Assembly (NCBI GenBank): GCA_029582165.1
Contig: CM055890.1
Coordinates: forward strand, 8,931,787 to 8,995,786
Length of the DNA: 64,000 bases
Reading direction: 5' to 3'
From: Portulaca oleracea
Taxonomy: Eukaryota > Streptophyta > Magnoliopsida > Caryophyllales > Portulacaceae
Shown: in pieces, positions 12,734 to 60,900 of the stretch
Layout of the letters: each line of letters begins with the position of its first letter
Position numbering within the stretch: position 1 is the first letter of the stretch
Notes under the pieces: model-generated
What the model saw: only the letters and a program-made list of their open reading frames with translations
Database searches by the model: none
What the model was told of the DNA's origin: nothing
Made by a program: the position numbers and the translations under genes

Positions 12734-12877
12734 GCAAGATGGACCCAACACGGATCATGCCAGGCTTGACACAACCCGTGTTGGGGTCCAGAGAGTAGGA
12801 TTATCCTACACTGGTCCAACACGGACCATGGTGGTTCACCATGAATCGTGTTGTGGTCAACACGGACCGTGTTGAGT
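12734..12877. promoter_or_regulatory. Palindrome cluster CAACACGG-A-CCGTGTTG upstream of LTR TATA
   Basis: At least five related copies in both orientations lie within about 140 bp. The best, at 12858-12874, is a perfect 8-bp arm palindrome with one central base. Others are variants such as CCAACACGGACCATGG (12817 on) and ACAACCCGTGTTGG (12771-12784). The cluster ends about 190 bp before the TATA box of the candidate solo LTR, so it lies in U3, where transcription is controlled. Confidence 0.7.
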
Positions 12878-13063
12878 GCAGTCAGCCTTAATGGTGTAAT
12901 CCCATGATTTCAGCTTCGGGATTGATTTAAATGGATTGATATTTGGGATTATTATTGACTGAGAAATCAGTCAATAATCACCCCATTATTATCCATGGAC
13001 AAATCCCATGGATCATGCCCTTTGCTTTGGAAATAATGCTCAATTTGAATGCTCCTCAAGTCC

Positions 13064-13072
13064 TATAAATAG
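13064..13072 (+). promoter_or_regulatory. TATA box of candidate solo LTR
   Basis: TATAAATAG is followed within about 70 bp by a C/T-rich leader (CTCTTCTCTCTTC), the usual arrangement at a plant LTR transcription start. Confidence 0.7.
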
Positions 13073-13555
13073 TGGGTGTTTTTTGCTCATTCAAACACAC
13101 CACTACAATCTCTTCTCTCTTCTTTTAGAGAGCTTCAACACATTCATAAGGTGTTGAACTGCAACAATATTCTTGAGAGTTCTTGTACTTTGCTTACAAG
13201 AAGTTAGGTTTTACCCTTGAGTCTATTTGCGGTCTAGTGAATAAGTCTTAAGGGGAGACGGTATCACTCTCGACTCCTAGCCACCCAAGTGATCCCCCAA
13301 CTTGTGTAAAGTGACCGTGTTTCCCCATATTTCCAACATATTCCTTCTTGAAAAGACAACAATAGATTTATAAATAACATGAGGTAGGTAATAGAATGGT
13401 GTGAGCCACTATTTGGCAGGCAAGTATCCCATTCAAAGTGGAAGCTATTCTTTTGAAAGTGATTTCACAACACACTACTTTTTACAAGGGAGGATATGGG
13501 AGTGAAATGATTGTTAGGCTCATTTTTAGCTAATGTGGTTATCTTAATTAGTTAA

Positions 13556-13860
13556 CACTACAAGATGGAAGCCTAGAGAAGACCATTCATTGTGACCGTT
13601 AATTGAATGATCGCATTTTTCGGTCGGACGATCGTATATTTGCGACCGTATATTAACGATCGCAAATAGCAACCGTTCATTTAAACGGTAGTTCTGGTGC
13701 GCGGCCGTTCAAATGAACGGTAGCGCCACAGAGCGATCGTTTAAATGAACGGTCAAAAATAAATGAACGGTCGCACGATTAAATGAACTATTGCTATTTA
13801 GCGATCGTTCAATTTAATCGTGTGACCGTTCAAGTGAATGGTCGCAACTTTTAATTTATC
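13556..13860 (+). mobile_element. CACTA (En/Spm) element left end with palindromic subterminal repeats
   Basis: The element begins CACTACAAGATGG at 13556, preceded by TAA as a possible 3-bp duplication. Over the next 300 bp there are many direct and inverted copies of a GACCGTTCATTTAA/CGATCGTTCAAT-type motif, including palindromes such as CCGTTCAAATGAACGG. Subterminal arrays of this kind are known in CACTA elements, where the element's own DNA-binding protein (TNPA in En/Spm) binds them. The matching right end (TCTTGTAGTG) was not found in the window, so the element is truncated or the end has diverged. Confidence 0.75.
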
Positions 13861-19875: not shown

Positions 19876-21090
19876 TGTAGACACCGAAAAAAATCGATCG
19901 ATGACCTTTTTCGCGGCGCTACTTAAGGAGTGATTGGGAGCCGATTAGGATTGCTTAACCTTAAATAAGGTTGAACTTTTAAGAATGCTTTCGTTAACAG
20001 ATTAAAAACGATTTTAGCGCCCGAGGTTCACCTTTAAAGAAAGAAAAAAGACGGAAGAAAGGGAAGGGAAGACATACAGGAACCCGTCTGAGTTCAGAAG
20101 AACCTAGACGGGTTTCTTAACTGCAAAACCCTACAAAAAGGAAAACAAAGAAAAGAAGAAGAAGAGAAAAGAAGTGAAGAACCCGTCTGGGTTCTTAAAG
20201 AACCAAGCCGGGTTCCTTTGCGCCATCTGCGAATTCTGCCGAATAAAAAGACGAAACAAAGGAGGGTGAAAAGAGGACAGGAACCCGCCTGGGTTCATGG
20301 ATTGAACCAAGCCGGATTACCTTTGGCGTTAATCACAAATTAGGTCACAAAAATCATAAAAAAGGGAAAAAACACCAAAGCACGAGAAAGTCGCGGTTGA
20401 ATTTTAGGAGAAAACAACAAACCATTAGATACAGACTCGACTGCGAATCCGAGAGATGGATTCGGGGTAAGGTTACGAATTTGACAATAAAATCATCAAA
20501 TCCGCCTATTCAACGAATAGACTCTACTAGAATTAAATTAAAGTAAAACAAAACAAAAGGAGGAATTAGATATGAATTTCACAATTTTATCATTAAAAAA
20601 ACATGCGAAACAAAGAAACTATGAAAAGAGAGAATTCTATAAACTACTACATGTTTTACATCAATTATGCTAACCTTTAGTAAAGCGATGCAAGAGGAGA
20701 GAAGAAGTGGGGAGAATATGCTAGTGTCAATACTCTAGCATACCATGGTGTGTTTATGGAAGGGAAGAAAGTGTTTAATTTATAGCGGAATGGGGGAATA
20801 GGGGGCGCGTTCTAGGGTTTATGTTTTAGCCGCCGCGTCACTCTCAGCCCAGGAACCCAGACGGGTTCTCGCTGAGCCGAGCAGCTTTGGCCCAAAGAAC
20901 CCAGACGGGTTCTGCCGGCTCAGCAAAGCTTTGGCCTTTGCTGAACTCAGCCGGTTTGGACCGTAATTGCTGGGCTATTTTGTTTGCTTTCGGGCTAGAA
21001 AAGGGATGGGTTTGCATGCTACTAAACTATTCGGCTAGCTTATTTTCCAAAACTAGTACTAAAATACTAATACAAAATTCAGCGTCTACA
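19876..21090 (-). repeat. Left LTR (3' LTR in element sense), 1215 bp
   Basis: It starts TGTAGACACCG and ends GCGTCTACA, and is nearly identical to the right LTR apart from small indels. It contains eight copies or near-copies of the GAACCC-GTCT-GGGTTC palindrome: six at 20080-20320 and two at 20853-20912. The minus-strand TATA box at 20777-20786 places the second group in U3 (upstream) and the first in the transcribed R-U5 part. Confidence 0.95.
20777..20786 (-). promoter_or_regulatory. TATA box of left LTR
   Basis: The minus strand reads GCTATAAATT, followed by a C/T-rich leader (CTTTCTTCCCTTCC). Two GAACCC-type palindromes lie about 70-130 bp upstream. Confidence 0.7.
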
Positions 21091-21159: not shown

Positions 21160-22135
21160 ATCAGAAGCCTGTTCTGAAGCTGGTTGACGCTTGGAAGCCG
21201 GGTCCTGCGCCGATGTAGATGTGATGTTCATCACATTGTGAAGGCCCGATGATGGCCCTCGTCGCATTGTGAAGGCCCAACGATGGCCGCTGTTGACGCT
21301 TGGAAGCTGGGTCCTGCGCTGATGTAGATGTGATGTTCATCGCATTGTGAAGGCCCGATGATGGCCCTTGTCGCATTGTGAAGGCCCGACAATGGCCCTC
21401 GTCGCATTGTGAAGGCCCGACGATGGCCGCTGTTGACGCTTGGAAGCTGGGTCCTGCGTCGATGTAGGTTGGCCTGCTTAGTTTCTTCCGTAAAGCTGAC
21501 CGAAGGGTGTCATCGTATTGTGAGGGCCCGATGACGGCCGCTGAAGATGGGTTGACCTGCTTAGTTTCTTCCGTAAAGCCGGTCGGGGTTGATCCGTTTC
21601 ATTTCGCCGTGAGGTAGATCAAGGTCGTGCACTTCATTTCGCCGTGGAGTGCAAGACCTGTGCCTGGATGCTGAAAAGGGTGTCATCGCATTGTGAGGGC
21701 CCGATGATGGCCGCTGTCATCGTATTGTGAGGGCCCGATGATGGCCGCTGTCATCGTATTGTGAGGGCCCGATGATGGCCGCTGTCATCGTATTGTGAGG
21801 GCCCGATGATGGCCGCTGTTGACGCTTGGAAGCTGGGTCCTGCGCCGATGTAGATGTGATGTTCATTGCATTGTGAAGGCCCGATGATGGCCCTTGTCGC
21901 ATTGTGAAGGCTCGACAATGGCCCTCGTCGCATTGTGAAGGCCCGACGATGGCCGCCATCGCATTGTGAAGGCCCGACGATGGCCGCCATCGCATTGTGA
22001 AGGCCCGATGATGGCCGCCATCGCATTGTGAAGGCCCGATGCTGGCCCTCGTCGTATTGTGAAGGCCCGACGATGGCCGTCGTCGTATTGTGAAGGCCCG
22101 ACGATGGCGATCGTGAATCGCGTGTGAAGGCGATG
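21160..22135. repeat. Tandem array of 31-34-bp units, about 18 copies
   Basis: The unit is CGCATTGTGAAGGCCCGATG plus a variable end (31 bp at 21960-22080; 34 bp with GTGAGGG at 21721-21820). Larger blocks with GTTGACGCTTGGAAGC recur at about 21180, 21290, 21430 and 21818, giving a higher-order pattern. It lies just inside the 3' LTR in element sense, where Tat/Ogre elements are known to carry variable tandem repeats. Minus-strand frames through it encode only repeats. Confidence 0.92.
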
Positions 22136-22908
22136 ATGGCCGTTGTTGATGAAGTGTCGCGTACTAGCGGCGGACGGTGATGTCATGTATTGTTAGGGCG
22201 ATGGCGGCCATGGTGGGGAAATGTCGCGTACTAGCCGCGACGGTGATGGTGTCATGTATTGTTAGGGCGATGGCGACGGCTGGTGAAATGTCGGCGTACT
22301 AGCGGCGGTGATGGTGTCATGTATTGTTAAGGCCGATGGCGGCATCGGTGGGAAATGTCGGCGTACTAGCGGGCGACGGCTGATGGTGTCATGTATTGTT
22401 AGGGCCCGATGACGGCCACTGGCGGGGAAATGTCGCGTACTAGCCCGGCGACGGCTGATGGTGTCATGTATTGTTAAGGCCGATGGCGACGGCTGGTGGG
22501 AAATGTCGCGTACTAGCGGCGACGGTGATGGTGTCATGTATTGTTAGGGCCCTAGCCGTGACGGTGATGGTGTCATGTATTGTTAGGGCCGATGGCGGCG
22601 GCTGGCGAAATGTCGCGTACTAGCGGCGACGGTGATGGTGTCATGTATTGTTAAGGCGATGACGGCCATCGGGGGAAATGTCGCGTACTAGCCCGTGACG
22701 GTGATGGTGTCATGTATTGTTAAGGCGATGGCGACGCCATGGCGGAAATGTCGCGTACTAGCCCGGCGACGGCTGATGGTGTCATGTATTGTTAAGGCCC
22801 GATGACGGCCACTGGCGGGGAAATGGTGGGGAAATGTCGCGTACTAGCCCCGCGACGGCTGATGGTGTCATGTATTGTTAGGGCCCGATGACGGCCGCTG
22901 TATTTCGC
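22136..22908. repeat. Tandem array of about 65-80-bp units, about 11 copies
   Basis: Each unit contains GTGTCATGTATTGTTA and AAATGTCGCGTACTAGC, joined by GC-rich pieces that vary mainly by loss or gain of one to three G/C bases. The array follows directly on the 31-34-bp array and shares the GGGCCCGATGACGGCC element with it, so the two are related. The GC indels may be real or consensus errors. Confidence 0.9.
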
Positions 22909-23071: not shown

Positions 23072-23158
23072 GGTTCGCGGAATTGGGCTTGGCCCATGAA
23101 ACGTTTGGGTTCTTTGCGCTTGTTGGGCCTGTTTTGGCCCAAGAACCCGTCTGGGTTC
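23072..23158. promoter_or_regulatory. GAACCC-type palindromes upstream of the PMD gene TATA box
   Basis: GAACCGTGCAGGTTC (23072-23086) and GAACCCGTCTGGGTTC (23143-23158) lie about 145-230 bp before the TATA box at 23303. They match the palindrome of the LTR U3, so both promoters of this element carry the same motif. Function is inferred from position only. Confidence 0.65.
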
Positions 23159-23302
23159 GACCCTTTCATTATTTTTTCTTTTTTTGCGCAATCCAATAGG
23201 ATAGGATAAGGATAGATTTTCGGCCAGTGCATGTCTTCCACAATCCGGATGCCGGGGCCCGCTGCTTGGATACTTGTGTGGTGTGCATGCACCCACTTTT
23301 CC

Positions 23303-23310
23303 TATAAAAG
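23303..23310 (+). promoter_or_regulatory. TATA box of the antisense PMD gene
   Basis: CCTATAAAAGGAGGC is followed by a leader rich in CTTC/CTCT (23325-23390) and an ATG at 23410. This is a textbook plant core promoter about 100 bp before the start codon. Confidence 0.75.
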
Positions 23311-23409
23311 GAGGCCTCTTCTTCCCACTTCAAGCTCCTCCTTCTTATTCCTTTGCTTCTCTCTCTTCCTTGCTTCTCTCTCTTCCACTTATTTGCTAGT
23401 TAGGAAATA

Positions 23410-26400
23410 ATGGTTAGGAAAGCTAGGAATCATGCTCAACCCCTACGCGTGAATCGGGCACATGAGATGTCTTCCCGGCGAGCATGGACTCCCCGGCCCG
23501 GTTGGGAACCGTCGGAATTGGTGCCCGAACCATGGAACCACGTATGGCATAAGCATTCACATGTCCGGGTAATGTCTTCTTCTTGACTTTGCTTTTGGTT
23601 TTAGCTTAAATTTGCAAGTAGAAATGTTTGATTCTAACTTGTTGATTTAGCTAAATATGATGTGCATGAACTTTTGGTTGCTCTTGGTTGCTTTAGCTTA
23701 AATTTGCAAGTAGAGATGTTTGATTCGCACTTGTTGATTTAGCTAAGAATTGGGCCGAAGTAGAAAAACCGGTGTTTGGTAGAGGAACCCGTCAGGTTGG
23801 TGAGTGAAAACCTCCCTTTTGAGTTGGGCTTGGTTGAGTTGGGCCGGCAGAAATGGGTTCACTGGCCCGTTTTTGTCTCTTTTTTTTTTTACTAATGCGA
23901 GCTTTTTCTTTTTGTTTTTTTTTTGATAAATGCGCTCAAACCCGTCCGGGTATGGCTTTAGGTCGGAAAATGATGTTGGACTATCTCGAATCGGGCGAAA
24001 AGCCCTATTTTCGGCCTCAAACCCGTCTGGGTTGGGCTTGAATCATGTGAAATGGGCTGAGAATAGCCCCCCCTTTTTGTGCGTGGGCCGAAAAGATGGA
24101 AGAAGGCCCATTGAAAGGGTGTATAACCCGTCTGGGTTGCCTCTCCAGGCGACTTTCTTTTTTTTGTGTGTGTGGGTCGAAAAGATGGAAGAGGCCCACT
24201 GAACAGGAGTAGAACCCGTCTGGGTTCCTTCTCCGAGCAACCTTTCTTTTTTTTTGTGTGTGGGCCGAAAGGATGGAAGAGGCCCACTGAACAGGAGTAG
24301 AACCTGTCTGGGTTCCTTCTCCGAGCAACCTTTCTTTTTTTTTTTGTGTGTGGGCCGAAAGGATGGAAGGAGGCCCATTGAAAGGGGGTGGAACCCGTCT
24401 GAGTTCACTCATGAAATGGGCCACGCAATTTTTGTGGCGGATGAAATGGAAGCAAAGCCCAAAGGCTCAAACACATGCAGGTTTGGCAAGCATCGCTCTT
24501 CTTTATTTCTTGCGGTCGAAAAAGCCTGGCCCAGATGGAATAGAAGAAGGCCCAAACTCGCTTTCGTGTCTTAGCTCTCAGGCTGATTGGACCCGTTGCT
24601 TGTGCCGCATAGCCCCCAGTTTAGTGGCAGTTTGGTTTAACCCTTGCTAAACTGGGAGTCTATTGATAGCTGCTATACTGATGTACCCCTTTTGAATTCT
24701 TCTATCGTGGATTTTCAGGAAGATTCTCTTAGAACAGGCGGCAACATGCGGAAGCCGATCAAGGTGGTGGAGCATTTCGTGGAGGATAACTGGGCACTCA
24801 CTCTACTAGAAGAGTCGGGGTTCGATCTCTTTTGGAGATGTGTTAAGGCCTGGGAACCTTGTACACCACGGGTAATGGGGCGTGCGCTTGCGGAGAGATT
24901 CTGGGATTCTACCAACACCTTTCACCTCCCGGTAGGAGAAATGACCATAACCCCTGTCGACTTTGTGATGATTACCGGGCTACGCTGGGGTGGTCAAGAT
25001 GTCGAATTCGACCCTGTTGTGCCGGACCAGGTGATGGAACTATTAGAGCCGGTGCTCGAGCGCGATTTGGTCGAAAGATGAAGCTCTCTTATGGTTCCTT
25101 CGAGGTCATCATCACTCACCGACTTCACTCATATGGATGAGTTTCAGCGTCGCTTTATTTTCCTGGCATACTTCATCTCTGCCACAATGTTTGCCAATCG
25201 AGGTGATGATGTTTATTTGACCTGGATGAAGAATCTCCTCGATCTAGAGCAAGTCATTCACCGGAACTGGGCCAAAGCTGCTTATGCCAACTTCATTCGC
25301 TGGCTTCGCATTGGTGTACGGCCTGGTACTGATGTGGACCCATTCTTCGCGCCAGAGAGTCCGCGGGAGATGAGCGGCCCGAGCATGTGGAAGGTGCTCG
25401 AGGTAATCTTCGAGACGCTTCTCTCATGCTTTTCTCTCTTTTCCTATATCGTGAGTCTCGGTATTGACGTACTTGCAGGTATGGGGGTACGAGTATATTA
25501 AGGGATTCACTATCCCTACCCGACACGCCCAGACAGTGCCAGCAGCAGAATGGTGGCACAAAAACTACCTCGAGCAAAAAAAGAAACCATTTGGGAGCTT
25601 GGATGAGCTGCGCCGCATCTTGGATCATCTTGAAGAGGTATATTTTACATGTAATCTCTCTTGCATTTCTTTGATGCTTATGTTTCCTCTACTTGTGCAG
25701 GATGATGTTAATTGGAATGCCTGGGTTGGCTTTGCGATTCCACAAGATTTTATCCCCTCACGAAATGCGGCGCATAGGGATAGTACCCTGCGCTTGGTGA
25801 TGGAGAGCCCGTCCGGTTGGGTCTGGAGTCTTGGTGAGAGGTTTACGAGGCAAACCCTGAGCCATGAAAGGTGGATAATACCATCAGACCCTCCTGAGAC
25901 CATGAACGATCCGCGAGCCTTGCATGCCGAGGCGTTTGTAGCAGCTAGGAGGGGTTCTTGGTATACTAACCACGCATCGATGGCATCGCCCGACCAATTC
26001 TGGGAGGAATGGGAACAATATCGGGACCGCCTGGCCTTCAGAAAGGTAGGGAAGAAGACCTCTATTTATTCTTTTCATATCCCTTCTATTACCGCCTAAT
26101 GTGACCAATTCTTTGTTTGTTGCAGTTGGGGCCCTATTGCAAGGATGACGAGAAGAGCCAGAGTAACTCTGGGGACACAGTTTGTGGCTACCCAAGGGCG
26201 ACTAGCGAGGACATCAAACCGGAATTAGAGAAGATCCTGGGAAAGCCGGTAGGTGATTCCCTTTTTTCCTTGCTTAGTTGCAATTTGCTCAAACTTTGAC
26301 CAATTTTCCTCATTCTGTGCAGTGGCGATGGAAACAGGCGAAGGGCTTTCTCAAAAATTACTTCACACTTAAATGGGCTCGCGAGAAAGACCTTGCAGGT

Positions 26401-29390: not shown

Positions 29391-29399
29391 AGACTGGGT

Positions 29400-40561: not shown

Positions 40562-40570
40562 GTATAAATA
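40562..40570 (+). promoter_or_regulatory. TATA box of Athila-like 5' LTR
   Basis: GTATAAATACCCCC lies about 60 bp downstream of the last palindrome and is the expected core promoter for the genomic RNA. Confidence 0.75.
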
Positions 40571-41607: not shown

Positions 41608-41716
41608 GCAAGCGCATCTAGCTTAGCTTCTTGATTTTAGGTTGTTTAAGATCATTTCCTTTGCTAGAGAATTTGGTACCTTTAGTTGTTAAGAATTTGA
41701 TTCTTCTATTGTTCTT

Positions 41717-45672: not shown

Positions 45673-45677
45673 CTTAG

Positions 45678-47123: not shown

Positions 47124-47129
47124 AGGCAT

Positions 47130-47429: not shown

Positions 47430-47487
47430 CCTTGAGGGGTCTTTAAAAAATCCTTCGTATAAGGACTCGTGTTATGCCATCGATGTC

Positions 47488-50400
47488 ATGGAGGTGCTAG
47501 TCGACGAATATATAGAAGAATCTCATTTTCTCGAGTCTACATGTGATGATCCTTTGGGAGCATGTCTCCTAGAATCCTTTCAATTCGAGACCGACGACAC
47601 CGACATCGCATTTCTCACCAACCTTCTTGATTCGTCACCAACACATGAGGAGAATACTATTGATGAGCCTTATATTAAGTGTATGGAAATCCAAGAAGTT
47701 CTTTGCAAGGGTATGTCTTCTTCCTAAGCTAAACCCTCTCCCCCTCAATTAGAGCTTAAACCCTTACCCCCTTCTTTACAATATGCTTTCTTAGATGAGG
47801 AAAAGTCTTGCCTTGTGTTTGTGAATGCTAAATTACATGAATCTGATTTGTCTAAGTTGCTTGATTTGTTGAGAAAGCATAGGGGTGCATTGGGGTATAA
47901 AATTGAGGATTTGAAGGGTATTTCTCCATCCATATGCATGCATTCCATTGATTTGTTAGAAGATGCAAAACCAACTAGGCAACCACAACGTAGGTTGAAC
48001 CCTAATATGCAAGAAGTGGTAAAGAAAGAAGTAGTCAAGCTTCTAGCCGCTGGGATCATCTTCTCCATCGCAAATAGCGAATGGGTAAGCCTGGTTCAAT
48101 GTGTGCCTAAGAAAGGCGGGATGACAGTTGTTGAGAATGAAAAGAACAAGCTTGTTAGTACCAGAACCGTCACAGGATGGCGGATGTGCATAGACTATCG
48201 CCAATTGAACAAAGTGACCAAGAAAGACCACTTTCCCCTCCCCTTGATAGACCAAATGTTAGAGAGGTTAGCGGGTCATTCATTCTTTTGTTTTTTAGAT
48301 GGGTACTCAGGATTTTTCCAAATTCCAATTCATCATGCGCATCAAGAGAAGACTACTTTTACCTGTCCATATGGTACATTTGCATATAGAAGAATGCCTT
48401 TTGGTTTATGCAACGCACCCGGTACATTTCAACGATGCATGATGGCCATTTTTAGTGATTATATTGAGCATTGTATGGAAGTTTTCATGGATGATTTTTC
48501 TGTTTATGGTCATTCGTTTAATGATTGCTTGGATAATTTAGAGAAAGTTCTTATTCGTTGTGAGGAAGTTGATTTGGGTTTGAACTGGGAAAAATGCCAT
48601 TTCATGGTAGAGGAAAGTATTGTCTTAGGGCATTTAATTTCATCGAGGGGCATCGAGGTTGACAAGGCAAAAGTTGAAGTAATAGAGCGCCTACCACCCC
48701 CAGTTTCTATTAAAGGGGTGCGTAGTTTCCTTGGCCCTGCCGGTTTTTACCACCGGTTCGTCAAGGACTTTTCAAAAATCGCTCGTCCTTTGACCGATCT
48801 CTTCTACAAAGATGCCCCATTCTCCTTTACTGACGAATATCTTGAGTCCTTCTACAGGTTAAAACAACCATTAATATCTGCGCCGGTTGTCCAACCTCCG
48901 GATTGGACCTTGCCTTTCGAGATCATGGCTGACGTGAGCGACTTCGCGATTGGAGCATGCTTGGCTCAAACCAAATATAGGAAGCCGCGTGTCATTTACT
49001 ATGCAAGCCATGCACTCGATAGTGCGCAGAAAAATTATACAACTACGGAGAAGGAGCTCTTACCCATCATCTTTTCCCTAAACAAATTTCGTCAATACCT
49101 CATGTTTTCCAAGGTTATTGTATACACGGACCACGTAGCGATCAAGTTCTTAATGGGAAAGAAAGAAACAAAACCAAGACTTATTCGTTGGGTTTTACTT
49201 ATGCAAGAGTTTGACTTAGAGATCCGTGACAAGGCCAGAACCAAGAATGTCATGGCTGACCAGTTGTCAAGAATCCTTGTTGATTTAGAGGATACTCAAC
49301 CCATCGAGGACTCTTTCCCGGATGAACATCTTATGTCCGTCAAGCATTCTCACCCATGGTACGGCGATATCATCAACTACTTGGCTAGTGAGGTGGTCCC
49401 TCAAAATCTAACCCCTCACCAAAGGAAAAAGTTCTTTCATGATGTGAAGCATTTCTTTTGGGATGATCCATTCTTGTTCCGTTTATGTAATGACGAAATG
49501 TATAGAAGATGCTTGCCTGATAGTGAAGTGACTGTGTTGACGAATTGCCATGAGTTTCCATGTGGAGGTCATGGGGGATGCCAAAAGACGGCTGCTAGAG
49601 TTCTACAAGCCGGCTATTGGTGGCCAACCCTCTTTTGAGATGCTTATCTTCATGTCAAATCGTGCGATAAATGTCAACGGTCCGGGAACATTTCCCGGAG
49701 AAATGAGACACCACTGAATTTTATTCTAGAGGTGGAGGTTTTTGATGTGTGGGGGATGGACTTTATGGGTCCATTTCCGTCCTGAAAAGGATATCAATAT
49801 ATCCTAGTAGCAGTTGACTATGTGTCAAAGTGGGTTGAAGCGATTCCGTGTGTGAGATGTGATGGAAAGTTTGTGGCAAAGTTTTTGAAGAAAGTTATTT
49901 TTCCAAGATTCGGTATTCCGAGGGTCATTATTAGCGACAATGGGTCTCATTTCATTGAGAATAGGTTTGAGTCTCTTTTGTCTAACCACGGTATTTATCA
50001 CAAGAGAGGACTTCCTTATCACCCTCGAAACCAAGGCCAAGTGGAAATTTAGAATCGTGCCATTAAAGAAGTTTTGGAGAAGACGGTTAGTTCCTCACGA
50101 AGAGATTGGGTGGATAAGCTAGATGATGTTCTATGGGTTTATCGTACCGCATATAAAACACCAATAGGAACTACTCCATACCGCCTTGTCTACGGGAAAT
50201 CATGCCATTTTCCCGTAGAACTCGAACACAAGACAATATCGGCTATCAAAAAGATGAATTACGATCTCAAGGCGGCTGGGGCGAGTCGATTGTTTCAATT
50301 GGAGGAGCTCAAGGAATTAAGACTACACTCCTATGAAAACAATAGAATTTACAAGGAGCGAACCAAAGCTTGGCACGAAAAGAGGTTGAATCATCGTGAT

Positions 50401-50633: not shown

Positions 50634-51030
50634 AAGAAGAATTAGGTCGAGCTAGAGACCTAAAACAAGCAACTGGGAGGAGGTATGTGCTACTTTCCTC
50701 TTCTTTAGTGTTTTTCATTTCTTTCTCGCATTCTTATTTCCTTTTTGTCCTAGTGTTTCTTTTGTTCATGTCTTAATCTTAGAAAGGAAGAAAGAAAAAC
50801 AAAAGAAGAAAAAGAGAAAATCAGAAAAAATTGAGAAAATAGAAAATTTTGAGAGTGAGAAGAAAAATTCGTGAAGAGAGTGATTCAATATAGTTTTTGA
50901 GTGGTGAAAGATGTCCTTGAATGTTTTATGAGTGTGAAGAAAAGAGAGTTTAATAATGAGAGGAGTAGGAGTCCTAGGACTTAATTTTGTTTTCAAGGAA
51001 AATGAGTTTTTCAGGTGATGAGTAGAACAA
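50634..51030 (+). other. Post-pol spacer with splice-donor-like site
   Basis: AGGTCGAGCTAGAGACCTAA is followed by GGGAGG|AGGTATGTGC. The same block exists in the minus-strand element (near 61330-61395), so it is conserved in the family. The AG|GTATGT at 50681-50688 could serve as a donor for a spliced RNA of the third ORF. The rest is A/G- and T-rich without coding similarity. Confidence 0.45.
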
Positions 51031-51119
51031 GGTGGCAGGTGCGATCTACTATGTAGCACCCACTATGTCTGTCTGGAACGATCAAAATGCTGAAGTCCTC
51101 AGCCCCGTCGCGCCTGTCA

Positions 51120-51282
51120 CCAAAGACGTAACGCCCACGGCCTCTTCCAGAATTTCCGCCAGAACGAGACCGCACCTACTGTCCTCCTACACCGCACCTG
51201 CGATCTTGGCGAGCTGAGTTTTCAAGGTTTTCCTCCAGACAGAGACCGCACCTGCGGTCTGCCTGCACCGCACCTGCGGTCC
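51120..51282. promoter_or_regulatory. Interior GACCGC-ACCT-GCGGTC cluster upstream of the third ORF
   Basis: Exact copies lie at 51244-51259 and 51267-51281 (the latter lacking the first base), with degenerate copies near 51168 and 51191. The motif is the same as in the LTR U3 of this element. A leader-like C/T-rich stretch with CAAACCCTAAAAC follows at 51370-51430. No TATA box was seen between them. Confidence 0.7.
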
Positions 51283-51718
51283 ATCGAGCTTCGATTTTTG
51301 TCGGGCTTCTTAACTTATTTCTCCTTCATTTTAACTCATTTGTTCTTTACTCCACACCCTCAAACGACTGTTTCTCTCTCTAAAAATCCTAATACCCAAA
51401 CCCTAAAACTCACATTCTCTCACAAATCTTCTTTCTCTACTCTCCCAAATCGCGAATCCGTGCCCTAACCACGCCACTCTCAACCATTTCGCCTCTTTTG
51501 AAGTTCTTCAAGTGCGATTTTGGTTAGTTTTCCTTCCTTGGGAGTCGACTATGGCAATGCAACATGCCTAAGCCTCTTTCTAAGGTATTTCTTGCATCCT
51601 TGTGTGTCAATTTCATTTATTATCTGATTTTGGGTGTTGTTTGTGAGTTTTCTTGACTGAGACTTAGGGTTTGCACGGGTCTAGTTGTTTCCATCACTCT
51701 CTATTCTTTACTTGCTCA

Positions 51719-53115
51719 CATAGGTCGACCTAAGTGAGCCCGATCTGAGAAAGAACCTCCCACTCCGCCACCTGAGTTGTCGGAACCAGATAAGAATCGT
51801 TATAAGGCGCAACCCGCCTAACTTATTCAATGTGATCCAAAAGTGAAAGTCACTTTCAGTGATGAGATGCATAAACAACGGTTTATGAGGTTCAAACTAC
51901 GGAAGATATGTGCTCCTGACGTCTATGATGAAGAAACGTCAAAGGATGTCTACTGTAAGCCAAGCATGGATTACTTCATCAAAACCTTGGGCTGGGAGGT
52001 ATTTGTTACTATCAGTGACCCGATTATCGACCAGCCGGTGCTTGAGTTTCTAAGTTCATTAGTGGTAAAGGAAGACGGAACACCAAATGCTACTTTTAGC
52101 TATCGGGTGGCAAAGGAGGAGATTACATGTTCGGTTCATGACCTTTGTCATGCATTGGGTCTTTCCTTGGACGGATTTTACTATGAAGATTGTGCCTACT
52201 TCGACGAGCAAGAAGCAATGAGAGCCCTCACCTGTTAGCGGCGAAGGTATCCAAAATCCCGAAACCAACATTCAAAGATTCACTGCCCAAATAATTCTAA
52301 GGCTCGGGATTTTTGCAATCTAGCTGTTCGACTTCTTCATCGAATTATATCAAGTTCCGTCTTTGGCCGAGATATCGGGCGATCAAATGTTCGTAAGGAC
52401 GATCTCTTCGTGATCTTCAATGCCGTCAACGGTCGCCGTGTCAACACGGGCTCCTGCATTCTTTATTGTGTTCGGGAAATCAGCCTTGAAGTTCGTCCAA
52501 TGACAGTCGGCATGGGACATATAATTTGTCACTTTTTCAGAAGCAAGGTTTCGAATCTTACCTAGTTAAGTGGAATCCGAGATACTTTCCCGATCCTATC
52601 GATGGTGTTCGGCTACGAAAGATGGAGTTCTTGGAAAACATCGGACATAAACAATTTATCACCATGGTCATGGACTCCGTAGTGTCGCAATCCACTTAGA
52701 TCATGATCACGCAGAAGGCTAGTTGGATATCACCGACCGGCGCAACTGGTCGTGTGGTCAAAGGCATGGAGGCCGTTATGTGATGGGTGGTCCTTTTGAA
52801 TCCGATAGGGACAATGATGAAGAAGGTGAAACTGAAAGCGAGGAAGAAGAAGAGCAAGCATAAGGGGAGAATGCGAGTACAAGCCAAGCTGAAGGTACCT
52901 CACTAGGACGTCTTAGTGCTCAACTTGAGGAATTACATACTGAGTTCCGAGCGCAACAAGCATTAATCCAAAGCCATCAAAATTTGCTTGGAAGTTTGCA
53001 AGATCTTTTACATGCACAACAAAAGACTCTTGATAGCATTCAATTGCAGCTTCAACACCAACCCCATCCTCCTCCGGGAGGATGCGATTGCTGGCGATTG
53101 CTGAACTGTTTGTAA
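51719..53115 (+). pseudogene. Third ORF of the Athila-like element
   Basis: The main frame (51843-52238) has FMRFKLRKICAPDVYDEE, KPSMDYFIKTLGWEVFVTI and VHDLCHALGLSLDGFYYED. Downstream in shifted frames come VFGRDIGRSNVRKDDLFVIF and TVGMGHIICHFF, then an acidic stretch and a Gln/Leu-rich coiled coil. The same order occurs in the minus-strand element. It resembles the ATHILA ORF-1 or 'putative plant transposon protein' families known after pol in Athila elements; the function is unknown. The start codon seems lost and there are many frame breaks. Confidence 0.78.
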
Positions 53116-53178
53116 GCGTCCCCGCCCCCACTTGTTCTCTTTCATTGTCTTTACATGTTTTTCTGCATGTGATATAAG

Positions 53179-53211
53179 TGTGTGTGTATGTGTGTGGGGG
53201 GGGGGGGGGGA
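53179..53211 (+). repeat. (GT)n then G-run microsatellite
   Basis: Alternating GTGTGTATGTGTGT is followed by about 16 G. Such runs are unstable and prone to length error. Confidence 0.9.
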
Positions 53212-53923
53212 GAAAGGGTGCTTCATTGGGGACTTGGTGGGGAGGAAAGAAATTGTGGGTTTGGCATGTGTTGTCTAGCTTTTGGCTTTTGTGACGGTTG
53301 GCTCCAAGAATGTTTGGTTTGTTTTTGTGTTGATATATCCTTTGCATTTGTGTCACAACACTTATTTGGGTTTCTTTGGATGGGTTGGTGTGGTTTGCAT
53401 TCGATTTATTTGGATTTAGGACCGGGTAGTGGCGAGTACCTCACCCTTATTTCCCGCCTCAAAAGAGTGAGATTCGGGGATAAGGTTTATCATTGGCAAT
53501 GTACATTTTGTTCATATATATATTTTTTAGCTTTTTAGTGTTAAGTTAGTTGTTTTTCTATTTTGTTTTTCCATCTTGCATGCGCTATTGTCAAGTATAA
53601 GTCGTTTCTCTACCTTGATATCATGTTCTTACTGGTTGACGACTTCGGATCATGGCTTAGGCATTTATTTTAGAAGAGCTTGAGGTAATATCTTTTTACC
53701 CTCCTCTTTACTTGATGAATATTATGATTTGATGCATGCTTGATCTTTATTTTTGGTGGCGTGCCCCCAGTGTGAATGTGTTGGGCATATTTTGTTGATG
53801 GAGCCGTGTGGGCTCGGGTCGCCACCAGTCCACTTACATGCTAGTTGTTTTGTGTGTTTTTTTTATGTAGTTTTCCTACCCTTTTCTTGTGACACCCTCT
53901 CACAATAAGGACATTGTGAAGCT

Positions 53924-53951
53924 TTAAGTGTGGGGGGAGGGGGGAGGGGAG
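53924..53951 (+). promoter_or_regulatory. Interior polypurine tract-like site
   Basis: AAGTGTGGGGGGAGGGGGGA and the next bases form a 25-nt purine tract, preceded by GACATTGTGAAGCTTTAAGTG. The same word order occurs in the minus element at 57722-57765. It is about 1.1 kb before the 3' LTR site, so it is not the LTR-adjacent tract. It may serve as a second priming site. Confidence 0.55.
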
Positions 53952-56071
53952 ACATTTCATGCTCAAGGGTAGACAACCAAGATCTTTTATTTTATTTTCC
54001 TTAGTTTTGCCTTAAATTTGAAAATTTTTTGTGTGAAAAAGGAGAAAAAAGGGAGTGAAAAACCTTAAAAGTTTTCGTTTTGCTTTTCTTTTTGCTTCGT
54101 TTCTTGGATTTTGTTGTCAAAATTGGGAAGACTTTTTTAATCTTCTTTAAAAGAAACCGATTTGAGCATTTTTGACCCTATCTTGGGCGATTGTCATGAC
54201 TAATTTAAATTAGATTCCCTTCATTGAGTGTCTAGCGAGATTCCTGATTTACCTCACGTTCTAGTTGAAACTGGGAGACTCTAGTTGGCCACATCCAAGC
54301 TTGTTTGAAAAAGAAAAAGAAAAAAAAAACAGAAAAAATAAGAAGATGAAAAAGAAAAAGAAGTTAATTCTCAAATAAATGAATTAATTGGTTCGTGTCG
54401 GTCGAATTCGGCATTAACCAACATAAAGTTAGTTGACCTACATGAGACTAGTATTAGCGGTACGACGTTATTACCCCTTAAACCTCCATCGTTCATGATG
54501 ATGAGGTGTATGGAAAATACTGTGTTGGAAGGGTAAACCCTGTTATGGGTCGTTCAACTCCTAAAAAGCTAACGCCGACTTAAAGCTAAATCGAAAATGT
54601 TGGGCCTTAAATTTCTAAAACCCAACCCAAAAGAAGGTTAAGTTCTAATAAAGTGAGGAGCCTTTCCATGCATCACCTGTGGCCCTCACCAAGCCAAGGG
54701 CGACCCAATGCGGGTGAGGGCAACTCTTTGCTAATCTTGTTCGTTTTTTTGCAAGCCCGGGTGTGAGTTTTACTTAGGGTTGATCAGAATCAATTAGAAC
54801 CCACTAAGCACTTGCGCACATGGGGTTTAGCTTTACATGAGGTGTCGGGGATCGAAAACCTCTAAGATTGGCAATTGCTTGAGTTAGGTGTATGTGAAAT
54901 GCTCATAACGGTTCCTTTTGGAGGATTAGTATCGTTTTCTTGATTGAGATTGCATGATTCCTCGAAGTAAGCTGTTTTCCTTTTCCTTTTCTTTCTTTGG
55001 TTTTGTTGTTCACTTTCCCTCTCTCCTTTTTCTTTCACTTTTGTGGGTAGAGCCGCTACAAACCCTCACGAGTCCATCTCGTCCACCCGGGCTGCTGTAA
55101 CGTGGTTTGTTAGACCTCGGTTTTTATCATTCTTCTCAGGGAGCGAGGGGCCTTAGTCATAGAATCTAGGTCAAAGGTTGGGTCAAGATTGTTAGGGTAA
55201 GGAAATCGGTTTGAAGGGGTCACAAAGCCAGAAACAAAGCTAAGGTCGGTCAAGGAAAAGAAATGGGCTTCGGAGGCTTTTCGGGATGCAAACGGAGATG
55301 AGGAAATGGGTTTTGCAACAAGCGAATAATAAGGAGGGAGAATCAAGTGGCAATTCCGTTAGGAAATACCAACCGAGCTTCCTCTTTCGAGGATAGTCCG
55401 GATTAACTACCTCAAAGTCCACCACGGACCCGGAGAGTTAATGAAATGGAATTCCCTAGTTAACCTCCTTCCACTTTCGTGGGTGAGCATTAACTATCCC
55501 ATCTCCAACCTTCCAACACGAGTGTTGGATGTATTCGGGAGCTTTCGGACCCAAATATATCCCACTTGAGGGAAGGAAAGGAGTTGGAAATTGATTTCCC
55601 AACTGATTACTCACTAATATTGCTAACCCAAACCTAATCACCCATTCACACCCTCAATTACCCCATAACCCATAGGGTTTCTAGCCACTAATCATGATTA
55701 AAACTAAACTAACAACATCCAAACCAACCCTAAGCATGATTTCTAACACAACTAATCACAAATCAAGCAAAACAATGGGAATAGCAAGCAAAACAATTAA
55801 AGAAGCAAGAAAGTAATTAGCAAAGCAATTAATGAAAGAGTTAAGGGAAGAGAATACTTATTAAATGCTGGAAGTAAACAAGGAAAAGCAATAAAAGGAT
55901 GATCCAACAATCTCTCAATTGTTTGAATCCCCAAATCTTCAACAACACCACAAAACCCTGGATTATCCAAGCTAATCTCTCTCTAACCTCCCTCTAAAAT
56001 AAGCTACTACAAAGCTGGAAAATAAAGTCTAACATGCTAAAGTCTAATCCCCAAGAAAATCGTCAAAAGGA

Positions 56072-56081
56072 GTATATATAC
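56072..56081 (-). promoter_or_regulatory. TATA box of minus Athila-like LTR
   Basis: GTATATATAC lies about 90 bp downstream, in element sense, of the palindrome cluster. Confidence 0.6.
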
Positions 56082-56139
56082 AAGTCAAGGCAGTTGGGCA
56101 AAACGCGCCGTTTACAACCAGAAACAAGCGCAGAAAATA

Positions 56140-56390
56140 GAGGGGTCGTGGGCGCGACCTATGGGGTAGCGGGCGCTACCCTTGCGAAATCCATAGGCGA
56201 TTCTTCGCTTTGTAAGACAGTAGGTGCTGTTCGGGAGACCGCAGCTACTGTTTTCGTCTGTCCAGCCGAGGTAGTGGTTGTCACCAGTGGGGTAGCGGGC
56301 GCTACCCTCCTGTTTTCTTCCCCTCTCTTGCTTTCTTCTTTCCAAGGCATGTAACGCCCGCTACACAGATCGTAGCGGGTATTACCTCAC
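56140..56390. promoter_or_regulatory. GTAGCG-GG-CGCTAC palindromes in U3 of the minus LTR
   Basis: GGTAGCGGGCGCTACC is exact at 56165-56180 and 56291-56306. Variants lie at about 56351-56364 and 56372-56385. The GACCGC type is nearly absent here (one degenerate copy near 56229), although the plus relative has three exact copies, so the motif mix differs between relatives. Confidence 0.78.
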
Positions 56391-56635
56391 TGATTTGCAC
56401 CAAATGAAGGGAAAGTGGTCCCGAGTCAACTCCGCTTCGACTCTCGGTTCGGCTCGGCTCGGCTCAGGAAATCTCCAAAAAGCCTCAAAAACAGCCCATT
56501 TTGCCTCGTTTTATTTTAAAACGCCAAAACCTACAAAATAACCAAAAACACAATAAAAAGCACGAAAATGATTCATAAACGAGCTAAAATACCAAGATAA
56601 AAGGCTGTATTTAGGCCCAAAAATGGGACTAAACA

Positions 56636-56650
56636 CTCCCTCCACACTTG
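56636..56650 (-). promoter_or_regulatory. Polypurine tract of the minus Athila-like element
   Basis: The minus strand reads CAAGTGTGGAGGGAG directly before the LTR, the usual place for plus-strand priming. Confidence 0.75.
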
Positions 56651-58429
56651 AACTTTTGCTCTTCCTGCGCAAAACAAAAAAAAAAAAAAAGAAAAACTAA
56701 ACACCAACTACTCTGTCGTGGGAGGAAACGAGTGCATTTAGCGTATGCCCCAAGCCCTTTAAACCCCCGTGCAGCCTAGGTGGACGAGGTGGTCTCGTGA
56801 GGGTTTGTAGCGGCTCTACCCACAAAAGCCAAAGAAAAAGGAGAGAGGGAAAGTGAAAAACAAAACCACGAACGAAAAAGAAAAGAGAAAAAATCTTGCT
56901 TCAAGGAATCAAGCTATCGCAATCAAGAAAACAATACTGAAGATCCAAAAGGAACCGTTGTGAGCACCACGAAAACACCTAACTCAAGTAGTTGCCAATC
57001 TTAGAGATTTTCGACTCCCAACATTTTATGCAAAGCTAAATCCCGTGTGCGTAAGTGCTTAGTGGGTTCTAGATGATTCCGATCGATCTCCAAGAAAAAC
57101 TCACATCCGAGCTCGAATCAAAGCGAAGAGGAACAAAAAGAAAAAGCGATGCCTTTTCCTTGTTAATGTTGCCCTTGGATTGGTGAGGGCCGCAGGAAAC
57201 TCAAGGTGAGACTTTTGTTAGCAAATCAATGGTTAGCATTGGTTAGCGTTGGCTTGAGAAAGCTCAACAAGATTGGCGTTAGCTTTTTCGGGAATTGAAC
57301 GGCCCATAACGGTGTTTACCCTCCCAACACGGTCTTTTCCATACACTCAACGTTATTAGAACAAAGTGCTTAAGGGGTAATAGCGTCGCACCGCTAATAC
57401 TGGTCCCGTGTAGGTAGACTAACTCTCTACAGGTCAGATTTAATTAAATTAGTTAGCTTTCGGATATAAAAGTCATGACAACGCCCAAGCTAGGGTCGAA
57501 AAATGCTCAAACCGGTTGCTTTAAAGAAGATTAAGAAATTCTTCCCAACTTTGACAACACTATCCAAGAAACGAAGCAAAAACGAAAGCAACACGAAAAC
57601 TTTTAAGGTTTTTCACTCCCTTTTTTCTCCTTTTTCACGCAAATTTTTTTTCAAATTTTAGGCAAAAACTAAGGAAAACAAAAACAAAAGCTAGATGATC
57701 TACCCTTGAAACAGAATATCTTCTCCCCCCCCCCCCACACTTAAAACGCCGCAATGTCCTCATTGTGGGAAGGTGTCACAAGAAAAGGGTAGAGAACCTA
57801 CAAAAACAAACAAACAAAAACAACTAGCACATAAAAGTGGTGGCAACCTGAGCCCACACGACTCCAACAACAAAATAATCCCAACACAGACACTCAAAGG
57901 GGTTCGCCACCCAAAAGAAAATCAAGCATGCAACGAGGATCAAGATATATACACAACAAAGAATGCGGAAAGAGGTTACCTCGAGGTCTTCAATTAAAGA
58001 ACAAACCAAATTCGCGATCCGGGAAAATATCACACCTGGGTTAGGAATAAAGAAAAACATAATAAGTGTGAATGTTCGCATGCATGAAAGAAAAAGAACA
58101 AAAACAGAAATATAAACAAGACACTAGAGACTAAAAACTAAAGAAAAGCGAAAATAATTACAAAATATACATTAAAACTAGCTAACCTCAACTCCGAATC
58201 TCACTAGTTTGAGGCGGGAATTGAGGGTGAAATAACTCTCATGACCGGCCTAACCAATGATGAAGCAATAAAAGTGAAACAACTAAACCACGGGGACAAC
58301 GAACTCAGCAAAACTAAACTAGCCGACACGCTCCCCAACTTTCCCATAAAGCACCCCCCCACTTATTTAACACTAACAGTGTAAACAAATCAATAAAGAG
58401 AGTAAAGTGGGAGCGGGGACACTTACAAA
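56651..58429 (-). other. 3' non-coding region of the minus element
   Basis: It is non-coding and homologous in reverse to 53116-55095. It includes an interior purine tract (poly-C on plus, 57724-57737) preceded in element sense by GACATTGCGGCGTTTTAAGT. The plus-strand frame at 57773-57997 is not recognised and overlaps this conserved non-coding part. Confidence 0.65.
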
Positions 58430-59926
58430 TCATTGCTCGGATCCTCCCGGGGGAGGATATGGGTGATACGGAAAGTAGGTGGGATAGTGGTTGTTTATGT
58501 ACTCAGGTGGTGCCGGGGGATTGTTCGCAATGGAGTAGTGGTAATACCCCGAGTCACGCCAGTACTGGTTCTGCTGTTGAAAATACTCCTCGTGCCTTTG
58601 AAGTGTGGACAGCTGGGCATGTAGAAGATCTTGTTGGGTCTCCAACAAGTTATGTTGACCCTGGAGTAGCGTTCGTTGTTCTCGAAGATCAACTCTCATT
58701 TGTTCAAATTGAGAGTTGAGATGCCCAAGTGAAGCTTCCCATGGTTGACTTCCACTTCCACTAGCTTCACCATGGCCGGGATACTCCTCTTCCTCTTCCT
58801 CATTTTCTTCTTCTTCTCCTTCTTCTTCTTCTTCTTCTTCTTCTTCTTCATCATTGCCCTCCTCTTCCTCCTTATCATCGGACACATCCGGACCACCCAC
58901 CTTGCGGTCACTAACCTGACCACAAGACCAGTTACGCTCCTTAGTGATATCCAACCACTATTCGGCATGGTCCGGATCCAAGAGAATCTTAGTTTTGTTG
59001 TCGTGTCCATGGCAATAGATCGTGAAAGTTGGGTGTTTGGCAAGGATGTTCATTTTCTACAACCATACCCTATCGATAGGATCCGGAAGATAGCGTGGGG
59101 CAACTTCTTCCAATACTTCCCGAAACCTTCTTGGACTAGGAAGTGGCAAATGATGTGCCCCATCCCGATAGTAGTGGGTTGGGGTTCCGTGCTAATCTCC
59201 CGAAGACAATGTAAGATACAAGATCCGGTGTTGACCCGTTTACCACTCACTGCATTGTAGATCACGAATAGATCATCCTTCCGAACCTTGGGGCGTCCAT
59301 CATCTCTCCCAAACACTGAACTTGTCACGATCCTATGGAAAATTCGAATGACCGGATTGCAAAATCACGCCCCTTAGAATTTCGGGAGCAATGATAGCGT
59401 GGTTCTTTGCCTCTCATGCCAAGATCCATCCTCCTCCAACAAGTCAAGGCTTGCATTGCCTTTTGCTCATCAAAATTTTTGCATCGCTCATAGTATCTCC
59501 CATCATCGGGCAACCCCAACCTTTGGCAAAAACGCTTCAAGGTGCACTGCTTATCTTTGTCGGTGACTCGGTATTCAAAATGTGCATTTTTTCTTGGCAT
59601 CAACGTGAACCTTCAAGGAGCTTAAAAACTCGAGGATGGATCGAATCGATTGTGATGAACACCTCCCAACCAAGAACACGGATGAGATAATCGAAGCTTG
59701 GTTTACAATGGATTGCTTCGACCGTCGCCGCATCATAAATGTCCGTTGCACATATCTTCCGTGCTTGGAGCGATTCATACCGTTGTCTATGCTCTTCATC
59801 CCGGAAAGTTACGTCCTTATTAGGTTCACACCGAATTAGTGTGGCCGTTTGCGCTCGGTAGCGATCCTTTGTGGATTGTGATGAAGAAGCTTCTTCAACG
59901 CGAGAATGCTTGCTCCTTCCACTCAT
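58430..59926 (-). pseudogene. Third ORF of the minus element, with acidic tail and coiled coil
   Basis: The start is probably MSGRSKHSRVEEASS at 59926. Then come LQARKICATDIYDAATV and KPSFDYLIRVLGWEVFITI; after a frame change KRFCQRLGLPDDGRYYE, FGRDDGRPKVRKDDLFVIYN and TTIGMGHIICHFL; then, after a further change, a poly-Glu run (GAA/TTC microsatellite, about 58796-58850) and a Gln/Leu-rich coiled coil (LREQRTLLQGQHNLLETQQD) ending Pro/Tyr-rich at 58430. The order matches the plus copy at 51719-53115. Function is unknown; the coiled coil suggests self-association. Confidence 0.8.
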
Positions 59927-60735
59927 CTTTGAACCAAAAGCAAGACTTGGCAAGAATTTGACAATAACAGTGCCTAATCTCAAAGGTAAACCGAAAACAA
60001 TCGACACAAGCTACAAACAAGTGAGTTTGAAAAGCTTATGCACAGAATTCACAAGAGATTACCTTAGATCGGACCACTTGAACATGGATTCAGCAAGGAG
60101 GAACTATTTCGCTTGTCAAAATGAGCAACAACACACAGCCAACACACAAAGGGCATAAAAACAACACACTAATATAGTTCACTGTGTAGGTGTGTGTGTA
60201 AATCAACAAGAACTCTTAGTACAACTAGTGCGTGAGTGTTTCCAACAGATGATATGCAACAATTACTCACACAAAGCACTAATGCAAGAACTAAGGACTC
60301 GAACTCAGCACACAGTGAGGTAGGATTAAGCGCAAAAATCGACAAAATCAATCCCTAACTCATCAACAATGACGAACGAGCTAAATGCAGATGAGAGGGG
60401 AAGTGATTTCGCATAATTTACACAAGAAATACCTCACTTAGCTGTGAAGAACAAGAACTTGAACAATGGCGCATGTCAGGGCTGATTCTAGGCAGAAACT
60501 CGAAACCCAACAGCAAATTTTCGCAACAATGGAGAAAAATTAGGGTTCAGGATCGAAAATGGAGAGAGAGGATGAGGGTCGAATTAAGAGTTGAGAGGGA
60601 TGGAAGGGTGTGGGTGAGAGCTTGTAGCAGGTTTAGGGTTTGTAGAGAGAGAGAGGGAGTCGAATGAGTGAGAAAGGAAATGAGAAAAGTGAGAAAGAAA
60701 GTCGGGATTTAGGGTCGAAAAACATTCACGACAAA
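59927..60735 (-). other. Leader-like region upstream of the third ORF
   Basis: On the minus strand this is C/T-rich with CTCTCTCTCTACAAACCCTAAACC near 60635 and another telo-box-like word near 60545. It then becomes AT-rich and intron-like up to the ORF start. The plus relative has a similar arrangement. It suggests a separate transcript for the third ORF, but no TATA box is clear. Confidence 0.45.
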
Positions 60736-60739
60736 GGTC

Positions 60740-60900
60740 ATGTCCCGGCGCAACCGACATCACACAGCGCGCGACGTCCACGGAGGGCTGGAATTGGCTG
60801 CCACTGAGCGGCTCAGTATTGTCTCCTTCTCCGCAGCTGCGCTGTGCTCCTAGAGCATCGTTGTTGCTACTGTTGCTTAGGCGTAGCGCCTGCTACCTCT
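60740..60900. promoter_or_regulatory. Interior palindrome cluster upstream of the third ORF (minus element)
   Basis: GTAGCGCCTGCTACC (60884-60898) and several degenerate GC-rich dyads (GCAGCTGC at 60834-60841, GAGCGGCTC at 60806-60814) lie here. The place matches the 51120-51282 cluster of the plus relative, but the copies are more degraded. Confidence 0.5.

Follow-up and report, generated by a model that had tools for sequence, protein, structure and literature searches.

What are the short interrupted palindromes (dyads) that crowd the promoters of retrotransposons in a 64-kb stretch of the Portulaca oleracea genome (assembly GCA_029582165.1, contig CM055890.1, positions 8,931,787 to 8,995,786; hereafter the window)? 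The plant DNA of the window contains nested long terminal repeat (LTR) retrotransposons, and we followed five of them: TE0, which is Copia-like, TE1 and TE2, which are Tat-like, and TE3 and TE4, which are Athila-like. An initial annotation had read at least five different dyads as a family-private code at LTR promoters and had offered three mechanisms: a dimer-binding site, a hairpin or an anti-silencing target. The private, promoter-linked code was supported by our analysis and strengthened by a paired layout at 21–22 bp in the Athila-like elements, but the lineages that carry it are fewer than claimed; dimer binding fits best, and the other two mechanisms are less favoured. Probably, we think, the dyads are sites, arranged in clusters, at which DNA-binding proteins dock as dimers; together they would make up a family-specific enhancer in the U3 (unique 3′) part of the LTR, repeated before an extra open reading frame (ORF).

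All five dyads were present where they had been placed. We counted perfect dyads (arms of at least 6 bp, spacers of 0–4 bp and at least three G/C per arm) and compared the counts with 300 dinucleotide shuffles of each LTR. Four of the five LTRs exceeded their shuffled counterparts, with 5 dyads against 0.47 expected in TE0 (a count reached in 0/300 shuffles), 4 against 0.59 in TE1 (1/300), 5 against 0.67 in TE2 (1/300) and 8 against 0.79 in TE3 (0/300); the fifth, TE4, was marginal. Outside the LTRs, two of 12 regions exceeded chance, namely the part of TE3 that separates pol from the extra ORF (50900–51500; 3 dyads against 0.40, 3/300 shuffles) and a tandem array in TE1 (21183–22900; 6 against 1.53, 1/300). 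Three were mildly above it (51500–55097, 5 against 1.85, 3/60; 41700–47700, 4 against 1.90, 6/60; 56800–63600, 6 against 3.50, 7/60), and seven were not above it. Scans with single words showed a much larger excess: AACCCGNCNGGGTT, with up to two mismatches, had 59 matches on both strands against 3.4 expected (0/100 shuffles), a figure that overstates the number of distinct sites because many match on both strands, and GACCGCACCTGCGGTC, with up to three mismatches, had 14 against 0.12 (0/100). The shuffles rule out chance as the origin of the dyads.

The words belong to three lineages rather than five, because the Tat-like LTRs are homologous and have a core in common (AACCCG-NN-GGGTT), and the Athila-like LTRs are likewise homologous and have both of their words in common. 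The proposal that unrelated lineages share the architecture but not the sequence is thus right only in part. TE1 mostly uses GAACCC-GTCT-GGGTTC and TE2 uses AAAACCC-GCAR-GGGTTTT. TE3 and TE4 use two words: 10 copies approximate GTARCR-SS-YGYTAC, and 12, including four that precede the extra ORF of TE3, approximate GACMGCA-SS-TGCKGTC. The dyad first described as GACCGC-ACCT-GCGGTC is present, but its outer spacer bases pair too, and it is better written GACCGCA-CC-TGCGGTC; the exact form occurs in TE3 only, with relatives in TE4. TE0 has its cluster of CAACACGG-A-CCGTGTTG (12746–12875), but with a single perfect copy (12857–12875), the remainder being degenerate and about 21 bp apart (a 21-bp period with three copies at 12812–12874). 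When the TE3 and TE4 LTRs are aligned, corresponding dyads are 65% identical against 49% for the remaining cluster region, and two whole dyad pairs swap word between the elements, both arms together. This switch looks more like the replacement, through selection or conversion, of the word that a pair unit presents for recognition than like free compensatory change.

The clusters had been placed 60–370 bp upstream of a TATA box, and TATA matches agreed in five of five LTRs (the pattern matched three times in TE2 and twice in TE3, where the match nearest the cluster was chosen). Dyad centres lie upstream of TATA by 198–310 bp in TE0, 76–120 bp in TE1, 82–345 bp in TE2, 71–365 bp in TE3 and 71–298 bp in TE4; counted from the LTR start, the first dyad lies at about 264 bp in TE3, 257 bp in TE4, 186 bp in TE1, 151 bp in TE2 and 105 bp in TE0. 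Ten dyads forming five pairs (40190–40499) precede the TE3 TATA at 40563, and eight forming four pairs (56144–56386) occupy the TE4 LTR, where the TATA is on the minus strand at 56080. The TE1 LTR has two dyads 44 bp apart (20853–20912) upstream of a minus-strand TATA at 20784, and TE2 has four (37773–38053), without partners at 21 bp, upstream of a minus-strand TATA at 37700. Tat-like LTRs carry an additional cluster 470–785 bp downstream of TATA, made up of three pairs of AACCCGTCTGGGTT-type dyads in TE1 (20080–20319) and two AAAACCC-GCAR-GGGTTTT dyads 78 bp apart in TE2 (36906–37009). Per element we count 18 copies in TE3 (10 of them in the LTR), 10 in TE4 (8 in the LTR), 8 in one LTR plus 11 internal in TE1, 6 in the solo LTR of TE2 and at most 5 in TE0.

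The words recur inside the elements, before the extra ORFs. In TE3, eight dyads in four pairs (51031–51281) stand between pol and the extra ORF. Upstream of the TE4 extra ORF there are two remnant dyads (60829–60897), 53 bp apart and with undetectable partners at 20–22 bp. TE1 has eight copies (23143–24406) upstream of its antisense ORF; a plus-strand TATA, CTATAAAAGG (23303), separates the first of them from the other seven. Three more copies lie near the 5′ LTR of TE1 (29404–29576), 78–79 bp apart. We trained a motif model on the 18 copies in the TE3 and TE4 LTRs and scanned the whole 64 kb with it; at a score of at least 10 it gave 29 sites, of which 18 were the training copies. Of the remaining 11, 8 lie ahead of the extra ORF of TE3, 2 ahead of that of TE4 and 1 in the TE1 tandem array. 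In 300 shuffles, the region before the TE3 ORF gave a mean of 0.06 sites (maximum 1) against the 8 observed, and that before the TE4 ORF a mean of 0.07 (maximum 2) against 2. The TE1 TATA CTATAAAAGG (23298–23314), which has one dyad some 150 bp upstream of it and lies about 1.3 kb ahead of the ORF, is a promoter candidate for the antisense gene.

In the Athila-like elements the dyads are strictly paired: 26 of the 28 sites fall in 13 pairs, all 13 of them spaced 21–22 bp centre to centre, and every other distance between neighbours within a cluster is at least 33 bp. Successive spacings are 21, 40, 21, 42, 21, 52, 22, 54 and 21 bp in the TE3 LTR and 21, 51, 21, 33, 21, 59 and 21 bp in that of TE4; before the TE3 extra ORF, pairs at 51038.5/51059.5 and 51113.5/51134.5, each at 21 bp, stand beside two pairs at 22 bp. 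The TE0 sites and the first Athila-like list were read by hand, and the 51038/51059 and 51113/51134 pairs were first picked up by a model, after the spacing had been noticed in that list. The linkers within pairs are unconserved in sequence and nearly fixed in length, at 5–6 nt, as helical phasing would require. Pairs in the TE1 LTR are spaced 20, 21 and 23 bp, with the two dyads of each pair in opposite orientation, an arrangement also found in some Athila-like pairs. Over five clusters, TE0 and TE1 included, 17 spacings fall between 19.5 and 23.5 bp against 4.8 under random placement (0/20000 trials), with the centres partly set by hand.

These arrangements suggest a scheme in which the U3 dyads would act as a family-specific enhancer, a second copy of which would stand before the extra ORF that follows pol (in sense orientation in the Athila-like elements, antisense in the Tat-like TE1), and in which one regulator would switch on both promoters, that of the LTR and that of the extra ORF. 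The functional unit of the Athila-like elements would be a pair of dyads on the same helix face, with centres 21–22 bp (two turns) apart, presenting four half-sites about one turn from each other, as for a dimer of dimers. We infer that a protein binds the dyads, that it activates, and that this binder is private to the element, as the product of its extra ORF, and does not come from the host. Parallels to parts of this scheme are described for other plant Ty3/gypsy elements. Retand has an antisense ORF between pol and the 3′ LTR, with tandem repeats in the region, and its TRP28 domain probably binds DNA (PMC11963269); the Grande antisense gene23 is transcribed from its own promoter (PMC7264820); and among Gypsy-type consensuses from ten species the plant mobile domain (PMD) was the commonest of the extra domains (PMC9289625). 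The 'DOWN' motif of MAIN/MAIL1 in Arabidopsis (PMC7156037) is a further candidate for comparison through the PMD link. TE1 resembles Retand in the position of its antisense ORF and in its tandem repeats and differs in that the ORF has PMD, not TRP28. A dyad word common to the LTR and the pre-ORF region, as in TE1, goes unmentioned in what was available of these three accounts of Ty3/gypsy elements with extra ORFs. By analogy with the TRP28 domain, a probable DNA binder, and the promoter of the Grande gene, the extra-ORF product is a candidate for the binder.

CACTA subterminal repeats, the TNPA sites, lie in the subterminal regions of a terminal-inverted-repeat DNA transposon, whereas the sites described here lie in the LTRs and internal regions of LTR elements. 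CACTA palindromes had been named as the nearest established parallel; to judge from the available text of Bousios et al. 2010 (PMC2829016), the repeated motif (RM) of Sireviruses is closer and already has such a layout. RM boxes are palindromic, have one word per family and occur in 8–32 copies per element in 13 Sireviruses; they cluster upstream of TATA, starting 200–400 bp inside the 3′ LTR, and additional boxes lie in the linker of the nine elements, out of the 13, that have ENV, 77 of 79 of them upstream of ENV (PMC2829016). The likeness extends to a palindromic word upstream of the LTR TATA in TE1–TE4 (weakly in TE0) and to extra copies before a 3′ extra ORF, with 8 in TE3, 2 remnants in TE4 and 8 in TE1, four of which are in a tandem array. 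TE3 and TE4 start their clusters within the 200–400 bp range and TE0–TE2 nearer the LTR start; TE1, TE3 and TE4 reach at least 8 copies per element, and TE2 and TE0 stay below 8. The CGG-CCG core of RM occurs only in TE0 (CGG-A-CCG), whereas TE3 and TE4 have CCG..CGG or GCG..CGC and TE1 and TE2 have CCC..GGG. RM is termed Sirevirus-specific in that text, with a comparison set of Ty1/copia elements (PMC2829016), whereas gene order places TE3 in Ty3/gypsy, with TE4 as its relative; TE0 could be copia. Neither strict 21–22 bp pairing nor whole-pair word switching is mentioned in the available part of that paper.

Several observations weigh against an enhancer read by dimeric proteins. All the results come from one 64-kb window and five elements. 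Taken alone, the TE4 LTR is weak, with 3 perfect dyads against 0.81 expected, a count that 12/300 shuffles reach; two internal TE1 stretches with motif copies are not significant alone (2 against 1.19, 107/300; 2 against 0.79, 56/300), and four of the eight TE1 copies before the antisense ORF lie in an 88-bp tandem array (24074–24406) and so are not independent. A motif model for TE0 was unspecific, recovering three of the five hand-read sites among its 12 best matches and ranking one unrelated place above one of these. We found no 21-bp partners for the TE2 dyads or the internal TE1 copies. Finally, nine of 13 cluster pieces were predicted to fold as RNA at z ≤ −2.9 relative to shuffles.

Such folding would suit a reading of the dyads as RNA or cruciform hairpins, with LTR transcripts folding, being cut to 21–22-nt small RNAs and feeding silencing by the host, a role put forward for the palindromes of maize Sireviruses; neighbouring dyads can also pair mutually as a stem with a short loop. 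In the 2016 maize Sirevirus work, as relayed in the available parts of PMC5311732 and PMC10760457, a fast-evolving cluster of regulatory LTR palindromes had predicted secondary structure, and palindrome-rich LTR regions were small-RNA hotspots; the likeness here lies in the fast-evolving palindrome cluster of the LTR regulatory region and in its predicted folding. Good folding is, however, expected, because any palindrome folds well. The pairing and covariation tests, which have little power, gave no arm pairing above controls with re-dealt right halves within a word class (p 0.21 and 0.43 for the Athila-like words and 0.10 for TE1; TE2 is invariant). Arm pairing did exceed the control when classes or families were joined (0/20000 for all Athila-like dyads; p 0.004 for TE1 with TE2), because either arm of a dyad has the same word. 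Pairing specific to the partner dyad was likewise absent within word classes (p 0.12, 0.78 and 0.67; n 5, 6 and 3) and significant when all 14 pairs were pooled, as also for the 11 Athila-like pairs by themselves (0/5000 each), which reflects the word common to both dyads of a pair. Bases flanking the core added no pairing in TE1 (p 0.60; contiguous 0.12); in TE2 their effect was marginal (p 0.06; contiguous 0.04; n 6), and the signal from TE1 and TE2 joined (p 0.013; contiguous 0/20000) is again a between-family difference.

A comparison of the two Athila-like LTRs seemed at first sight to favour stems. At 64 pair positions in eight corresponding TE3/TE4 dyads, 33 were unchanged, 16 had changed on one side and 15 on both, against 8.25 expected if the sides were independent, and 13 of the 15 double changes were compensated (binomial 3e-5 for a one-in-three chance). 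Yet re-dealing the TE4 right halves among the eight dyads still gave 10.9 compensated changes on average (p 0.23), and 12 of the 13 sit in the four dyads (two pairs) that switched word, so that these 12 may be as few as two events. In TE1, conservation drops sharply beyond the 14-bp core and is somewhat higher in the left half than in the right. The search pattern left two spacer bases open, and these are T in 16/19 and T in 17/19 copies; the pattern prescribed the remaining two, so their constancy is uninformative. The constancy of the free spacer bases is explained by a protein reading the word, not by arm pairing alone. We conclude that there is little specific support for hairpins, and consider them an unlikely explanation of the dyads.

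VANDAL elements, which are Mutator-like DNA transposons, suggest another possibility, that the dyads are targets of an element-encoded, VANC-type anti-silencing protein that removes methylation from its own family. In the available text of PMC5735166, VANC targets are family-private short words, dense in non-coding parts, with two coexisting variants and fast turnover, traits that recur here, and extra ORFs of unassigned function adjoin our clusters. The VANC21 motif, however, is arrayed in one orientation and evolves by tandem repeats (PMC5735166), whereas the sites here are spaced palindromes, opposite in orientation within the TE1 pairs and some Athila-like ones. Moreover, none of 20 protein pieces scanned against Pfam was named VANC, in a scan that was not aimed at VANC, and placement close to a promoter fits a transcription factor equally well. 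We regard anti-silencing targets as somewhat more doubtful still than hairpins.

As a further alternative, the dyads would be a by-product without function, left where a GC-rich palindromic word was locally duplicated in tandem and underwent gene conversion. This would account for the 88-bp array in TE1 and could produce whole-pair word switching, but we judge it improbable, given that linkers and flanks in the LTR clusters differ while dyads and spacing agree, that TE1 pairs are oppositely oriented, that 10 of the 11 non-training model sites precede extra ORFs and that three lineages have the layout in common. Integration into palindromes (PMC6911290) would not account for clusters inside LTRs.

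The lineage names given to the elements rest partly on putative primer-binding sites. TE0 is a plus-strand LTR (12649–13338; TGTTGG...CCAACA) without a coding part, with boundaries set by eye, no matching target-site duplication seen and a TATA pattern match at 13064. Directly after it (13672–13832) come dense self-complementary repeats of the GACCGTTCATTT and AAATGAACGGTC types, perhaps part of a DNA transposon, and further upstream lies a 1-kb element (6888–7921) whose terminal inverted repeats are long (about 332 bp, 92%) and contain 31-bp direct repeats in either arm; within one of these arms, two 17-bp stretches separated by 1 bp form a perfect inverted repeat (7819–7853). TE1 is on the minus strand, with a 3′ LTR at 19876–21090, a 5′ LTR at 30339–31570 that is 96% identical to it and has the identical dyad set, and the target-site duplication ACGCC. 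TGGCGACTCCACTGGGG, just inside the 30339 LTR on the minus strand, is what we take to be the primer-binding site of Tat/Ogre-type elements. All TE1 frames of at least 200 amino acids are antisense. Its extra ORF is in pieces on the plus strand (24641–26096), and the first piece matches the plant mobile domain (PF10536) at E 8.8e-10, above the Pfam cut-off, with two shorter neighbours below it (E 0.016 and 0.015). Complex tandem repeats, with 31-, 67- and 86-bp units among others, fill 21183–22900 between the 3′ LTR and the antisense ORF. TE2 is a minus-strand solo LTR (36633–38196; target-site duplication AGTCA) homologous to that of TE1, and both elements are assigned as Tat-like by inference.

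The plus-strand TE3 begins with a 5′ LTR (39934–41586) followed by TGGCGCCGTTGCCGGGG, presumably a primer-binding site, which together with the extra ORF led us to call the element Athila-like. It has gag at 45638–46294 and pol at 47728–50049; since reverse transcriptase/RNase H (47728–49638) precedes the integrase core (from 49786), it is Ty3/gypsy. Its extra ORF, in pieces (51822–52562), matches Transposase_32 (PF20167, 'putative plant transposon protein') weakly, at E 0.064 and 0.0028, below the Pfam cut-off. When proteins were searched with TE3 pol, 7966 relatives came up; the 120 listed were 47–70% identical, and the organisms named among them were plants except for one Salmonella enterica entry, taken as contamination. 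TE4, related to TE3 and nested in it, is on the minus strand, with a 3′ LTR at 55096–56635, gag at 62265–63308 and an extra ORF in three pieces (59053–60010), one of them weakly PF20167 (E 2.4e-05, below the cut-off) and the other two matching nothing; a protein search with a 136-residue piece of this ORF gave seven candidates, none at E 0.001. TE4 was inserted tail-to-tail into the 3′ part of TE3 (54427–57424), about 140 bp short of where, by comparison with TE4, the TE3 3′ LTR would be expected to start; that LTR would fall outside the window. Peptide patterns from TE3 pol and TE4 gag had no matching stretch in viral contigs, in a search able to reveal close relatives only, and an exact scan of these contigs for GAACCCGTCTGGGTTC returned 18 stretches with a single match each, which we take as probable chance matches.

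New here are the Athila-like pairs at 21–22 bp, the model sites before the extra ORFs and the whole-pair word switching. A layout described as Sirevirus-specific is thereby carried over to Ty3/gypsy lineages, and the geometry of paired dyads at two helical turns can be tested experimentally. With one word found both at the LTR promoter and ahead of the extra ORF, the role of the 'env-like' and antisense extra ORFs of plants becomes a direct binding question. More speculatively, plant retrotransposons from both superfamilies whose extra ORF follows pol might have converged on a self-regulating module in which the ORF, be it env-like, Transposase_32-like or an antisense PMD or TRP28 gene, encodes a dimeric DNA binder whose private word, paired at two helical turns, stands in both the LTR promoter and that of the ORF. 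If this were true, the 'env-like' ORFs of plants would be regulators, not envelopes.

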